Shown in pieces: positions 7,062 to 12,840 of a DNA stretch of 64,000 nt. The stretch's first letter is position 1, and each line of letters begins with the position of its first letter. Source of the DNA: Rhodothermales bacterium. GTDB taxonomy: Bacteria > Bacteroidota > Rhodothermia > Rhodothermales > VXPQ01. The notes under the pieces were generated by a model. The model ran no database searches and had not been told where the DNA came from. It saw only the letters and a list, made by a program, of their open reading frames with translations. The position numbers and the translations under genes are program-made. Location: the NCBI GenBank assembly GCA_022825385.1, contig JAJDWX010000040.1, positions 40,487-104,486 on the forward strand. The letters are read 5' to 3'.

Positions 7062-8162
7062 TCATCCCGCGTTCGCGCGGCCTGCGCGGCGCAGACGCTC
7101 GACGACATGCGCCATGTCCGCCGGCATGTCGGCCCGAAACGATACGTTTTCCCCGGTCCGGGGATGCACGAACCCCAGCGTTTCCGCATGAAGCGCCTGC
7201 CTGTCCAGACGCGCAAAAAGATTCTGGACGAACGCCCTGCGGCTTCCCGAAACCGGGCCGAACCGCACGGCCCGCCCGCCATACGTCTCGTCCCCGAATA
7301 CAGGATGCCCCAGGTGTTGCGCATGCACGCGAATCTGGTGCGTCCGCCCCGTCTCCAGTCGCAAGGCGGCCAGTACGGCATGATCCAGGCGCTCCAGCGT
7401 TTCGTACTGCGTGACGGCGCGCTTGCCCTTGTCCGAAGCAACGATAGCCATCCGTTTTCGGTCGCGGGGGTCGCGTCCGATAGCGCCTTCGATACGCCCG
7501 GCGGGCGGGTCCGGAACGCCCCATAACACCGCAAGATACCGCCGCGCAATGGTATGCTCCGCGAATTGCGCCGCCAGGCGGCGATGAGATACGTCGTCCT
7601 TGGCGACAACCAGCAAGCCGGACGTGTTTTTGTCAAGACGGTGCACGATACCTGGACGGATCGCCGGGTTGTCCGGGCGGTCCGGAAGCGCATGCAGGAC
7701 GGAAAGTCCGAGGCCCTCGCTGTCGTCGGGGGCAAAGGATTCGCTATCCGGCTCGGCGTCCATGCTGATCGGACCGGCGCCGACATGGTGCAGCAATGCA
7801 TTCACCAGCGTACCCGCGCGGTGCCCGTACGCAGGGTGCGTCACCATGCCCGCGGGTTTGTTCACCACGATCACGGCGTCGTCTTCGTACGCAATGTCCA
7901 GCGGGATCGGCTCGGGGCGGGCTTCGATCGGCGGCGGGCGCATGAGCGTACATACGATAACGTCGCCCGCCTGCACCACATGGGACGGCTTCGCGATCGC
8001 AACGCCATTCACCGCCACCCGGCCTTCTTCGATGCCCTGGCGCACTTTGGTCCGGGATACGTTCGGCAAGAACCGGGCAAGGTACCGGTCGATGCGAAGG
8101 CGTTCCGCGTACCCGGCGGGCGCCTCAAGCGTCACGATTTGTTCGACTCGTTCTTCGGACAT
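7062..8162 (-). CDS. rluD: RluA-family pseudouridine synthase (RluD-like) with S4 domain
   Basis: GIVHRLDKNTSGLLVVAK motif; RLETGRTHQIRVHAQHLGHPVFGDETYG. Confidence 0.92.
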   Translation of the reverse strand: MSEERVEQIVTLEAPAGYAERLRIDRYLARFLPNVSRTKVRQGIEEGRVAVNGVAIAKPSHVVQAGDVIVCTLMRPPPIEARPEPIPLDIAYEDDAVIVVNKPAGMVTHPAYGHRAGTLVNALLHHVGAGPISMDAEPDSESFAPDDSEGLGLSVLHALPDRPDNPAIRPGIVHRLDKNTSGLLVVAKDDVSHRRLAAQFAEHTIARRYLAVLWGVPDPPAGRIEGAIGRDPRDRKRMAIVASDKGKRAVTQYETLERLDHAVLAALRLETGRTHQIRVHAQHLGHPVFGDETYGGRAVRFGPVSGSRRAFVQNLFARLDRQALHAETLGFVHPRTGENVSFRADMPADMAHVVERLRRAGRANAG

Positions 8163-8218
8163 AACGAATGCGCGGCGACAGCGAATATATTTATCGTATA
8201 GATAGTACGTCCCCTGGA

Positions 8219-8674
8219 TTATGGAATACCCTCTCCGGTCTTTTTTATGACTTCTCCGAACGCCTCCGCAGTTTTATCCCAATATTTCGCTAAGTTTTCT
8301 TTTTCCTTATTGAACCAGGCCAATGCAAAATTCCTTGCATCTGGCCAGTCCAACTCCTTCATAAATTTCTCCCGAAATAAAGAACGAAACGAAGATTCCA
8401 TTGAAGATAACCACTCCTTATCTGCAACCTTGGCCCGGATTCGTTCAGCCTGTTTCCGCGCATTGCTTTGCCCCTTCTGTGCCCTTAAAACACATCTTTG
8501 CACATTCGGAAATTTTTCCCACTCTCGCGAATCGGAATTCCATGCTCGTATTGCAGCTTTTTGGGAGCTCTGCGCAATTTTACATATATCCTTACCCTGA
8601 TCTTTTGACTCGGCACTGTAGGCCTCCGCTTCCGCTTCCAGTGCATTTACAAATTTTTCTTGTAAAGTTGTCAT
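8219..8674 (-). CDS. Uncharacterised 151-aa helical, charged protein (AT-rich islet)
   Basis: ORF in visibly AT-rich sequence, same strand as the MBL operon; no recognised family. Confidence 0.55.
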   Translation of the reverse strand: MTTLQEKFVNALEAEAEAYSAESKDQGKDICKIAQSSQKAAIRAWNSDSREWEKFPNVQRCVLRAQKGQSNARKQAERIRAKVADKEWLSSMESSFRSLFREKFMKELDWPDARNFALAWFNKEKENLAKYWDKTAEAFGEVIKKTGEGIP

Positions 8675-8792
8675 TACAATCCTGAGAGTTTATCCGAGGA
8701 AAAAAAATAAGACTGTTAACAAGTCTGCCATCATTTTTGGCCACACGTAAGTCATGTGTAGTCCTTCCAAGCAATTATCTATAGTTCTCATT

Positions 8793-9851
8793 TCAAAAAT
8801 CTTTTAGTGCACATGCCGGTGAAATTTTTTCAACATGCCAGGCTGCCTGAGAGTCAATTTGCCTACGCAGGCGAATCATTCCGCGGGATAGGCTGACAGG
8901 AGTAATCGTCACTCCGCTTTCTCGAATAGTCCGAGCTACTGAAGGATTTCGATGTTTGCGCATCGGTCGCCTCGCTGATGCGGTAGCATAAGCATACGGA
9001 GTATATGCAAGAATACGGTCAATATCCTGTTGACTGGGTAATTGTTTTGCACCACGTTTCCAAGGAGTAAGAACTGCAACAGGTTCACTGAGCAGCATTT
9101 CGTTCCAAACTCTATTCTCATGTGCATTTGAAGAACCATGATGTGGAATTTTGAAAACTGAAGCTTTACCATTCGGATGTATTCGATTATCCAGTATTTC
9201 TAACCAGCCTTGTTTTTCAAGATCGGAACCAAGAAGAATCAATGTCTTTTTTATTTTTATCAACAAAACAACTGCTAATTTATTAAGATTTGTGGAAGAA
9301 ATACGTCGTCCTTTATTCGTTTCATTATCTTGTGAAATCAGAGATGAAATGTTTTCCAAAAAAGCATTAAATCTTTTGTCAGAAGGTGACAAAGACCATA
9401 TTTTACAATTTTTTGCCTGATATATCAGACGATTAGATAAAGCATTGACAGGCCCGCATTTTCTCTGATTTAATAAAGAAAAAATTTGATGAAGTTCTCG
9501 CATACCGTAACCAACTTTAGGTGCGGATTTATTTGCTACTGCTCCCATTCGAATAAGAAATTCCTTTTGACATAGCACACCTGCACAGCAAAATCTTGCC
9601 TGTTTACAAATATCAACGAGCTTACTTATTCCTCGCACATGGTCGTCATGCCAGTGTGTTGCAACAATAAGACGAACGACTTCGGCAGGGTTTAATCCCA
9701 ATTCTCTCAAATAAGATAATGCTGCCGGTTGATGATTTGTATTTATACAAGAATCGACAATAACCCATTTGCCATTTCCAATATGAATCAGGATGGATTC
9801 TCCATACCCAGGTCCAAAGAAATTTAGTTCTATTTGACTCTTGTCAGTCAT
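8793..9851 (-). CDS. Standalone ComEC/Rec2-like metallo-beta-lactamase-fold hydrolase
   Basis: FFGPGYGESILIHIGNGKWVIVDS; metal motif THWHDDH (HxHxDH); LLGSDLEKQGW; FKIPHHGSSNAHE; no ComEC transmembrane domain. Confidence 0.85.
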   Translation of the reverse strand: MTDKSQIELNFFGPGYGESILIHIGNGKWVIVDSCINTNHQPAALSYLRELGLNPAEVVRLIVATHWHDDHVRGISKLVDICKQARFCCAGVLCQKEFLIRMGAVANKSAPKVGYGMRELHQIFSLLNQRKCGPVNALSNRLIYQAKNCKIWSLSPSDKRFNAFLENISSLISQDNETNKGRRISSTNLNKLAVVLLIKIKKTLILLGSDLEKQGWLEILDNRIHPNGKASVFKIPHHGSSNAHENRVWNEMLLSEPVAVLTPWKRGAKQLPSQQDIDRILAYTPYAYATASARRPMRKHRNPSVARTIRESGVTITPVSLSRGMIRLRRQIDSQAAWHVEKISPACALKDF

Positions 9852-10471
9852 AATACTTGTATATTTTTTGAGATTTCTTCAGCCCACCTTGCACCGGCTA
9901 TCATATCTAATTTTGATAAGGCAGGTATATCTCGAAAAACTATATGAGATACACGTTTTTTAGTTCCCGCTAAAGATCGTTCATACCCTATACTCCAACG
10001 AAAAATGCTACCAGGACCAATTTGGTCACGATCATTTTTTGAAATTTCGGACAAGGGGATTTCTGCTTCCTCTTCAGCCAAAGATGCGTCGGCCGTTAAA
10101 TCCAATAAACGTGCCGTAAATTTTTCATCTCCAATTTCAAGTATATAACCCTCCCATTCTTGAAGTGCGTTAAACGTTATTTTCGGAATAAAATCTTTAT
10201 TTTTATTGGATATATAATTAAAAAAATATTCATCTATAAGATTACTATATATATTATTATGAGTATCTTTTGTATTATGATTTTCTGAGTATCCAATATC
10301 CAAAGAATATGTTCTAAAATCCAGAGAATATACTAGCGATATTTGTTCTTGCCTTGTACTGTTTTCTATTTCATCATTTTTTTGCAATGATGATGCTTTT
10401 TCAGATGATTTCTCATCTGAAATTGATCCTAATACATATCTATCTGTATATGCAGAAAGAAGTTGTGGCAT
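9848..10471 (-). CDS. Uncharacterised 207-aa protein; C-terminal WEGYILEIGDEKFTARLLDL domain
   Basis: Overlaps the MBL start by 4 bp (ATGA) and starts 2 nt after the preceding gene: translational coupling pattern. Confidence 0.75.
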   Translation of the reverse strand: MPQLLSAYTDRYVLGSISDEKSSEKASSLQKNDEIENSTRQEQISLVYSLDFRTYSLDIGYSENHNTKDTHNNIYSNLIDEYFFNYISNKNKDFIPKITFNALQEWEGYILEIGDEKFTARLLDLTADASLAEEEAEIPLSEISKNDRDQIGPGSIFRWSIGYERSLAGTKKRVSHIVFRDIPALSKLDMIAGARWAEEISKNIQVL

Positions 10472-10473
10472 AT

Positions 10474-11166
10474 TTATTCCTCCGTTAACGACATGATATG
10501 ATTTACGATTTTGTCTGCGCGCTTGAGAGATTTATCGAAATGCAGTTCCAGCAAATCAATAATTCCATGATCCGTAGTTTGCCTTTCCCAGGCATAGTGA
10601 TCATTAACTCTCACATATACACCTGTTTTGCCTCCACCAATTCGGCTTGATGGCTCTATCGTTACATTGATTTCTCCTCCCGGCGGCCTATCATCCGGGT
10701 TCACTTGCATCATGGTAATGGAGCGCATCCCCCCGTGCCTTCCATCCGGTTCAAGTTTCCTTCCCCAATCTCCCCAAGGTCCGGTGGGAGCCAATTGCCT
10801 GCCAAGTTTATCACGCACCTGCATATTTTGCACTAAGAAATGCACACTCCGATTAATCCCCATATTTCGCAAAGGCGTATGAAGCAAATGTTTCTGGAAA
10901 GTATGAACGACCAAATCCTGCAAACGAGAATAGGGCGATTGGGATGTAGTTGCTATAAAACGCTCTGGATCGACATGTATATGGAGCCAATCAGCTTCAA
11001 ATACAATCAGCTGCGGGTTGGCGTGTTTCAAAGTGGCAGATTCGACGATTTGTTTGGGTAGCAAATCTTGCCAGCCAAACCATGCTGGTGTGAAAATGGC
11101 CGGATTGAAATTGCCAAGCAAGACAAGCGAAACATCGGCAATCTCGGGTTCAGTCTTCATTGTCAT
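10474..11166 (-). CDS. Uncharacterised 230-aa protein, possibly distantly TIGR04255-like
   Basis: First well-supported gene of the operon; VFEADWLHIHVDPERF pattern is the only basis for the weak family suggestion. Confidence 0.7.
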   Translation of the reverse strand: MTMKTEPEIADVSLVLLGNFNPAIFTPAWFGWQDLLPKQIVESATLKHANPQLIVFEADWLHIHVDPERFIATTSQSPYSRLQDLVVHTFQKHLLHTPLRNMGINRSVHFLVQNMQVRDKLGRQLAPTGPWGDWGRKLEPDGRHGGMRSITMMQVNPDDRPPGGEINVTIEPSSRIGGGKTGVYVRVNDHYAWERQTTDHGIIDLLELHFDKSLKRADKIVNHIMSLTEE

Positions 11167-11658
11167 TTTTATATAGAAACAGGTTGTTGGTATGTTTTAC
11201 GTGACCGAATAGATTGACGTGTAACATGCGTTCTGCATAAGTGCAGCGACAAGATGCCGAGACGTTTCCTGCCCATACACCGCAAGACATCACCTTTTGC
11301 GCTTGTCCGTGAGGGCTTCTGAAGGCGCAGGCATTCTTTCAACATCGCCATTGAACATTGCGTCACCTCATTGACCAGCCTCAATGCCAAGGTCGCGCCG
11401 TGCGGTGGTTCCGAACGTACAGAGTGTACAGAAATCTTCCCGCTGGCGTCAAGGGAAGCGGGCAGGTGAACCGCGCATGGCATCGCCCGGCATAGCGATC
11501 CCTGCTCATAGAATAGGGCAGCGGTCATGCGACTGTCAAGTACCCGACTCAGATGTCTTCCAGTGGGGCACACCCTGTGAGGAGCAATATGTTTTGAAAC
11601 GTTCATGGCTCAATTCAACTCTTGCATAGCGATAATACGCCATCGTCTCGCAAAAGGT

Positions 11659-12840
11659 TCACTCCACCGCGGCAATCAGAAAAAATTTCTTGCCCGCCAT
11701 CTGCTTGACCACGCCTTTCAGTTCCAGGCCGAGCAAGCGCGCAAGGGCCGCGGCCGGGTCCATCTTCGCAGTCAGGCACAACGTATTGATGTGCAACGGT
11801 TCCGCCGAGGCGGCAAGGGCCCGGCACAAAATCTTCTCCTCCGGATCCAGCGCCGGCGCCGGCTTTGCGGGCGCAGACGCCGCTCCCGGCGCAATCCCCA
11901 GTTCTTCCAGAATATCTTCCACCCGCTGAACGAGTTTGGCCTCGCCCTTCTGGATCAGCCTGTGTACGCCCTCGCTGGACGGATTGTGCACGCTGCCCGG
12001 CACGGCGAACACTTCCCGGTTCTGCTCCAGCGCAAGGCGGGCCGTAATCAACGCGCCGCCCTCTTCATGGGCTTCCACGATCAGCGCGCCCAGGGCAAGC
12101 CCGCTCACGATCCGGTTTCGGCGCGGAAAATGCGGCCCGTCCGGCGGCGCGCCCAGGGGGTATTCGGACAACAAGGCGCCCGTGGCGATCAGGTCTTCGG
12201 CAAGACGCCGATGCCGCGCCGGATACACCCGGTCGATGCCCGAACCCAGCACGGCGATCGTGCGCCCGCCCGCATCCAGCGCCGCCTGATGCGCCGCCGC
12301 ATCCACGCCATAAGCCAAACCGCTCACAATCGAAAATCCCTCCCGAACCAGCGCCTCGGTCAACTCGCCCGTCACGCGCAAGCCGTACGGCGACATGCGC
12401 CGCGTTCCCACCACAGCCAACGCGCGCATGGGGCCCTCTGCGAACGGCAAACGCCCCCGCATCCACAAAAACGCAGGCGGATCGTCTATCTGGCGCAGTA
12501 AAAAAGGGTAATTCGCATCCCCAAGGGCCACCATCTCCGCGCCAATCTCTTCGGCGAGCGCAAACTGCTTCTCGACCGCTTCTCCGCAGTCGGCGGCGGC
12601 AATCTGCGTCGCCAAATCCCGTCCGACGCCCGGAACGGACGCAATCGCCGCCGCCGAAGCGCCCAGCGCGGCCTGCGCCGACCCCATTCGCGACATAAGG
12701 GCCCGCAGGCGCCCCGAACCCACGCCCGACACCAGCGAAAGCGCCACCATCGCCCGCCGTTCCGCACGATCCAGCGCATCCGGCGTCGCCCTGCCGCCTT
12801 TGGCCCCCGCGGGCCGCTGTTTGGCCGTATTCTCCATCAT
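11659..12840 (-). CDS. dprA: DNA-processing protein DprA/Smf
   Basis: Start trimmed to MMENTAKQ (ATGA overlap with obgE stop); VVGTRRMSPYGLRVTGELTEALVREGFSIVSGLAYGVDAAAHQAAL, FPRRNRIVSGL. Confidence 0.92.
   Translation of the reverse strand: MMENTAKQRPAGAKGGRATPDALDRAERRAMVALSLVSGVGSGRLRALMSRMGSAQAALGASAAAIASVPGVGRDLATQIAAADCGEAVEKQFALAEEIGAEMVALGDANYPFLLRQIDDPPAFLWMRGRLPFAEGPMRALAVVGTRRMSPYGLRVTGELTEALVREGFSIVSGLAYGVDAAAHQAALDAGGRTIAVLGSGIDRVYPARHRRLAEDLIATGALLSEYPLGAPPDGPHFPRRNRIVSGLALGALIVEAHEEGGALITARLALEQNREVFAVPGSVHNPSSEGVHRLIQKGEAKLVQRVEDILEELGIAPGAASAPAKPAPALDPEEKILCRALAASAEPLHINTLCLTAKMDPAAALARLLGLELKGVVKQMAGKKFFLIAAVE

Follow-up and report, generated by a model that had tools for sequence, protein, structure and literature searches.

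MBL-fold DNases that are activated on infection have been described in several anti-phage systems; in HamM, Avs1a and CanC, insertions hold the enzyme inactive until cleavage by a partner protease (PMC12799240). In the trypsin-MBL modules of Hachiman (HamM), AVAST type 1 (Avs1a), Lamassu and DRT (PMC12799240), a stand-alone ComEC-like MBL effector is encoded in a small defence operon and the protease is fused to a sensor ATPase, helicase or RT. In the Canu system, CanABC, two of the three genes control the third, which encodes an MBL nuclease, and caspase, TPR and Ig-like domains are present (PMC12799240). The three-gene unit analyzed here, A-B-C, shares with these systems the stand-alone ComEC-like MBL hydrolase, encoded by C as the candidate effector, and the small operon; like Canu, it combines the effector with two further genes. 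In contrast to the trypsin-MBL modules, it contains none of the protease fusions, and C is the last gene, following two unclassified ones; no caspase, TPR or Ig-like domain was found in A or B. With a probability of about 0.58, we consider A-B-C to be an undescribed mobile anti-phage system, in which an infection-triggered MBL DNase, C, would be controlled by A and B.

The window, i.e., the whole stretch of 64,000 nucleotides that was analyzed, carries this unit within an islet bracketed by rluD (7062-8162) and dprA (stop at 11659), where four minus-strand ORFs, A, B, C, and D, were located (Table 1). A and B are separated by a 2-nt gap, B and C overlap by the four bases ATGA, and 118 nt lie between C and the start of D. 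The GC content of the islet is 0.31-0.46, falling from approximately 0.65 before it and returning to 0.67 after it; for A-C it is 39%, compared with 62% in the remaining window. The first-pass annotation had described an AT-rich islet with a compact minus-strand operon between rluD and dprA, and the ORFs, gap, overlap and GC drop were all recovered as claimed. The gene order is not due to chance, since the A-B-C order was seen again in dozens of genomes. An additional 145-aa ORF upstream of A (11169-11606) had no family match in Pfam, NCBIfam or PADLOC and was taken as spurious. Promoter-like sites such as the one listed upstream of A, which is a consensus match only, were no more numerous in the region than in shuffled sequence, and no non-coding RNA, tRNA insertion site or flanking repeats were found.

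Table 1. Features of the islet between rluD and dprA, with positions in the window.
Feature	Position	Strand	Description
Gene A	10474-11166	-	230 aa, predicted TBP-like tandem beta-alpha fold, unclassified family
Gene B	9848-10471	-	207 aa, disordered N-terminal half, OB-fold and C-terminal helix (predicted)
Gene C	8793-9851	-	352 aa, ComEC-type MBL-fold hydrolase, predicted DNase
Gene D	8219-8674	-	151 aa, orphan; outside the conserved A-B-C unit
Promoter-like TTGACA-N18-TATTCT	11510-11539	-	Upstream of A; consensus match only
A signature FNPAIFTPAWF (residues 20-30)	11077-11109	-	Most conserved stretch of A
B OB-fold domain (residues 97-180)	9932-10183	-	AF2 strands 99-179 at pLDDT ~95; weak Foldseek matches
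C metal-binding motif HWHDDH (residues 66-71)	9639-9656	-	H66, H68, D70 and H71 invariant in 43 homologues
C motif LLGSDLE (residues 206-212)	9216-9236	-	G208 and D210 invariant in 43 homologues
C motif PHHGS (residues 236-240)	9132-9146	-	H237 and G239 invariant in 43 homologues

A, B, and C form a genetic unit. Profile searches covered 51 non-redundant loci of cellular, plasmid and viral origin and showed the three genes in the same order and on one strand in 48 of them, so that the co-occurrence elsewhere on which the first-pass annotation had made its candidate system depend was indeed found; the three exceptions comprised a locus at a contig end (L059), one with no detectable B (L074) and one with A alone (L077). 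The hosts span about ten phyla. Homologues of A were found at about 50 loci; among GTDB species genomes, 47 loci were recovered with aligned A sequences as query and none with a single A sequence. Scanning of viral contigs (IMG/VR) with C alone yielded 24 loci, in 23 of which A and B lie directly upstream, the remaining one being cut by the contig end; the linkage is therefore not an artefact of an A-based search. The three proteins co-diverge, as their pairwise identities are correlated (r 0.90, 0.91, and 0.93), and in 49 of the 51 loci the AT content of the unit exceeds that of its flanks. The annotated phage collection contained no match to C and no full-length match to A; among PHROGs families, phrog_28593 corresponds to C, phrog_36401 to the Pantoea A and phrog_29493 to B. 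Searches at the order, class and phylum level added five A-B-C genomes, two of them with decayed copies. The decayed copies are from two other genomes of the order: C is in two pieces with A and B open at L024:7941-9002 (the same copy as L053), and the A gene has two stops at L022 (G060:C85:19895-20275).

Gene D does not belong to this unit. Homologues of D were detected neither on plasmids, nor in other genomes of the order, nor in 15 other A-B-C-carrying genomes, and it was excluded as a fourth component on these grounds. Of the "two or three accessory proteins" proposed earlier, two, A and B, thus stand and the third, D, does not; it is an orphan without detectable relatives, located between A-B-C and rluD.

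The unit is mobile. A and C are adjacent on an Adhaeribacter plasmid and C was found on a conjugative Pantoea plasmid, where it is annotated merely as "hypothetical protein"; the three-gene layout is present in both. At the rluD-dprA site, the closest sister species (RluD 96% identical) has a 308-nt gap and two further sister species have gaps of approximately 100 nt, all without the cassette, while a fourth (G002, L026:5480-5590) has lost the cassette except for a broken stretch of 37 residues from the C-terminal end of C, located between dprA and rluD. There were thus at least two occupations of the site, or a single one followed by losses. In the tree of C, the window copy clusters with Latescibacterota copies (support 100/99), apart from other Rhodothermales. 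The horizontal acquisition that had been inferred for the cassette is supported by both the sister genomes and this grouping.

The effector candidate, C, contains the motifs THWHDDH, LLGSDLE and FKIPHHGSS and matched Pfam Lactamase_B with 35.6 bits (cut-off 22.7). It shows the hallmarks of the ComEC-type MBL superfamily, namely HxHxDH, the Asp of a GSDLE-type motif and HHGS, all unchanged or almost unchanged across 43 homologues, together with a ComEC structure match at E 7e-12, and its MBL site is intact. The view of C as a ComEC-type MBL protein without membrane channel, nuclease-like by motif and family, held up; a complete ComEC is encoded separately by the host. C is a predicted DNase by these motifs and by family, and its substrate could be other than DNA. 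The distance from HxHxDH to HHGS is 166-188 residues in C, versus 119-126 in ComEC of related genomes; the excess over the ComEC core in this stretch is approximately 43 residues, and the C-terminal part is longer too. We would guess that the extra central residues fit a gating insertion, which would cover the active site.

Neither A nor B matched any family in Pfam, NCBIfam or PADLOC, no protease domain was found in either with these libraries, and profile searches of both against PDB gave noise only. The AlphaFold2 model of A, built with 45 sequences, reached a pLDDT of 92.7 and a pTM of 0.89, and the order of its secondary structure gives two consecutive beta-alpha-beta-alpha units. This predicted layout is that of TBP, AdoMetDC and Bet v1-like folds, which may point to a TBP-like tandem fold; Foldseek matches were weak, with AdoMetDC (E 1e-5) and viral TBP-type proteins among them and a TM of about 0.3. 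In the model of B, residues 1-90 are disordered, residues 97-180 form a predicted OB-fold and a helix follows. Its best Foldseek neighbours were the OB-folds of LysRS, RPA32/14 and Stn1/Ten1, all weak (E 0.008-0.2), and the TM values of A and B to PDB entries were about 0.2-0.3, likewise weak. B-like OB-fold proteins were also found without A and C, on two viral contigs (L163:4737-5321 and L164:4827-5273), one of which has SbcCD-like genes next to it, and on an Acetobacter plasmid (L080:7914-8315), next to a CxxC protein; B therefore seems to be a portable part.

The unit is found in a defence context. P2-like prophages L151, L152, L154, and L157 have the arrangement gpQ-[A-B-C]-gpA, which also occurs in L150 at a contig end. 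In P2 itself this slot holds old and tin, and it is a hotspot of anti-phage systems (PMC9122126). On chromosomes, the order at L054 is HmaC/DUF499, DUF3780, A, B, C, HmaB/DUF1156 methylase and PLD-helicase, where DUF3780 was named from position and length according to PMC12839542 in place of a model match; the cassette is thus inside a Type-2 BREX-related (Hma-like) operon, as such Type-2 BR systems are described in PMC12839542. The same Hma-like core was observed at L049 and L055, and parts of it at L039 and L043. Additionally, Septu PtuA/PtuB adjoin A-B-C at L033, and a PARIS/AbiLi-like AAA ATPase with a DUF4435/TOPRIM-like partner (PADLOC PDC-M38A/B, AbiLi/AriA-like) adjoins it at L049:7950-9769 and L024:3909-5646; on the viral contig L155, the adjoining sequence resembles, on visual inspection, the terminal part of a type I restriction locus. 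PADLOC models with hits at E<=1e-10 numbered 168 and 161 for two of three batches of flanks (241 proteins), against 24 and 29 for controls (236 proteins from 18 arbitrary segments of six closed A-B-C-bearing genomes), these being counts of models and not of independent proteins or genes, most of them supplied by a few proteins (in the controls, by a BREX locus). When the neighbour list was read by eye, no defence gene could be recognised next to about two thirds of the chromosomal loci, and many loci sit among housekeeping genes; this scarcity fits a small unit that moves on its own. Prophage carriage, the old/tin slot of P2 and the embedding in known defence operons lend indirect support to the "possibly anti-phage" role raised in the first-pass annotation.

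Further loci were observed in the course of this work. At L076:12616-17144, a ubiquitin-like defence locus with a 1136-aa E1-E2 + JAB protein and a second MBL protein lies on the opposite strand behind A-B-C. A separate recurrent pair consists of an MBL protein of approximately 350-370 aa, often with EIDFL.V..GEKSGDAI..R(Y/W)G at its start, and an adjoining membrane protein of 165-250 aa (L210:7646-9243, L217:8340-10077, L117:4251-6033, L118:2178-3964, and L119:259-2032); it was found in the gpQ-gpA slot of E. coli-type P2 hotspots as well as in Bacteroidota, with SIR2 and HerA preceding it in one case, and is possibly a two-gene defence system in its own right.

With regard to mechanism, C would be a DNase that is restrained until infection. 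A and B might jointly sense the infection, for which the simplest signal would be foreign or replicating phage DNA bound by the OB-fold and the saddle-like fold, and would then free or recruit C, which would degrade phage and/or host DNA so that the infection is aborted. The unit encodes no protease, NTPase or second-messenger enzyme, so the switch of C would have to be one of binding or conformation. DNA binding by A and B is suggested by fold type, as the Foldseek matches are weak, and this sensing step is given a lower probability than the anti-phage reading as a whole. If the reading is true, A-B-C would exemplify a second, non-proteolytic control of an MBL nuclease, exerted by two unclassified partners, and A and B would add two more protein families to the defence repertoire. 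The unit is small and is present in P2-like prophages, and it can be directly tested in E. coli K-12.

Other explanations have to be weighed against this one. The compact overlapping operon with a toxin-like effector in last place, the plasmid and prophage carriage and the AT-rich mobile character would also be expected of an addiction or stabilisation module akin to toxin-antitoxin pairs, in which C is a toxic MBL nuclease neutralised by A and/or B and phage defence is secondary at most. However, three obligatory genes are unusual in such a pair, the broken C beside open A and B (L024/L053) and the A pseudogene (G060) indicate loss without obvious penalty, and A-B-C is nested repeatedly inside defence operons; we regard this explanation as unlikely, albeit the strongest of the rivals. 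Less probable again is a role of the prophage and plasmid copies outside defence, for example in lysogenic conversion, with an MBL substrate that is not a nucleic acid. P2-like hotspots do carry non-defence cargo as well (PMC9122126) and the MBL fold is functionally diverse, but chromosomal copies are nested in restriction-like and Septu loci, and C resembles defence MBLs specifically. The least probable role is in competence or DNA uptake and processing, with C as a detached ComEC nuclease domain: its motifs are of the ComEC type and the window copy adjoins dprA, yet the host genome and its sisters have a complete ComEC, which nearly excludes this role, other A-B-C loci lie away from competence genes, there is no membrane channel, and prophages carry the unit.

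A further alternative is compatible with the anti-phage reading and would make the system partly known. Rousset 2022 reported a P1-protective three-gene system with "no clear predicted domain" from the P2 hotspot (PMC9122126), and the prophage copies L151, L152, L154, and L157 share with it the gpA-gpQ slot and the three genes, the window copy lying elsewhere; the Pantoea C, moreover, carries no more telling a name than "hypothetical protein." That study curated arrangements occurring at least 10 times in E. coli (PMC9122126), whereas neither A nor B was present in 80 E. coli-type P2 hotspot loci, the gpQ proteins of A-B-C-bearing prophages are just 65-80% identical to P2 gpQ, and C has a recognisable MBL domain. 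Additionally, 43 C proteins, including that of Pantoea, gave no match to a Rousset-type family in PADLOC 2.0.0, a release that may be without its models. These indirect tests speak against kinship, which we consider improbable, only marginally less so than a non-defence role. The three-gene system in question is presumably the one called 3HP in DefenseFinder.

Among systems with curated models, C is weakly similar to the defence MBLs RTasMBL, LmuA, 6A-MBL and Avs1a, and wherever a curated cut-off is available its score is far lower. Its score against the Avs1a model was 27.9 bits of a cut-off of 420. 6A-MBL (NF058524) likewise places an MBL-fold enzyme in an anti-phage operon; C scored 28.9 of 220 bits, the two 6A-MBL loci that were inspected have a large protein and a patatin and no A or B, and membership in this system was rejected. 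The PADLOC RTasMBL model matched C at E 5.5e-17 and the LmuA model at E 7e-14, but the operon has neither the reverse transcriptase gene of DRT nor the LmuB SMC-type ATPase gene of Lamassu, and membership in either was rejected, as was membership in Canu, since A and B match no peptidase family. The MBL domain of ComEC/Rec2 shares the HxHxDH, Asp-containing and HHGS motifs; C differs from it in the longer central stretch and C-terminal part, and at 352 aa, without the Competence transmembrane domain, with 23.3 of 190 bits and in a host that has its own ComEC, it was not assigned to that family. Small operons that encode an MBL nuclease as effector are already a known kind. The A-B-C combination, the families A and B and the apparent lack of a protease switch were found neither in the literature nor in the libraries searched. 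It is possible, though at somewhat less than even odds, that A-B-C represents a new immune class. Two proteins acting as the sensor, one TBP-like and saddle-shaped, the other combining an OB-fold with a disordered tail, would then switch on a ComEC-like MBL DNase with no need of a protease, NTPase or second messenger, and the self-contained cassette would circulate among about ten phyla as well as on plasmids and in prophages.
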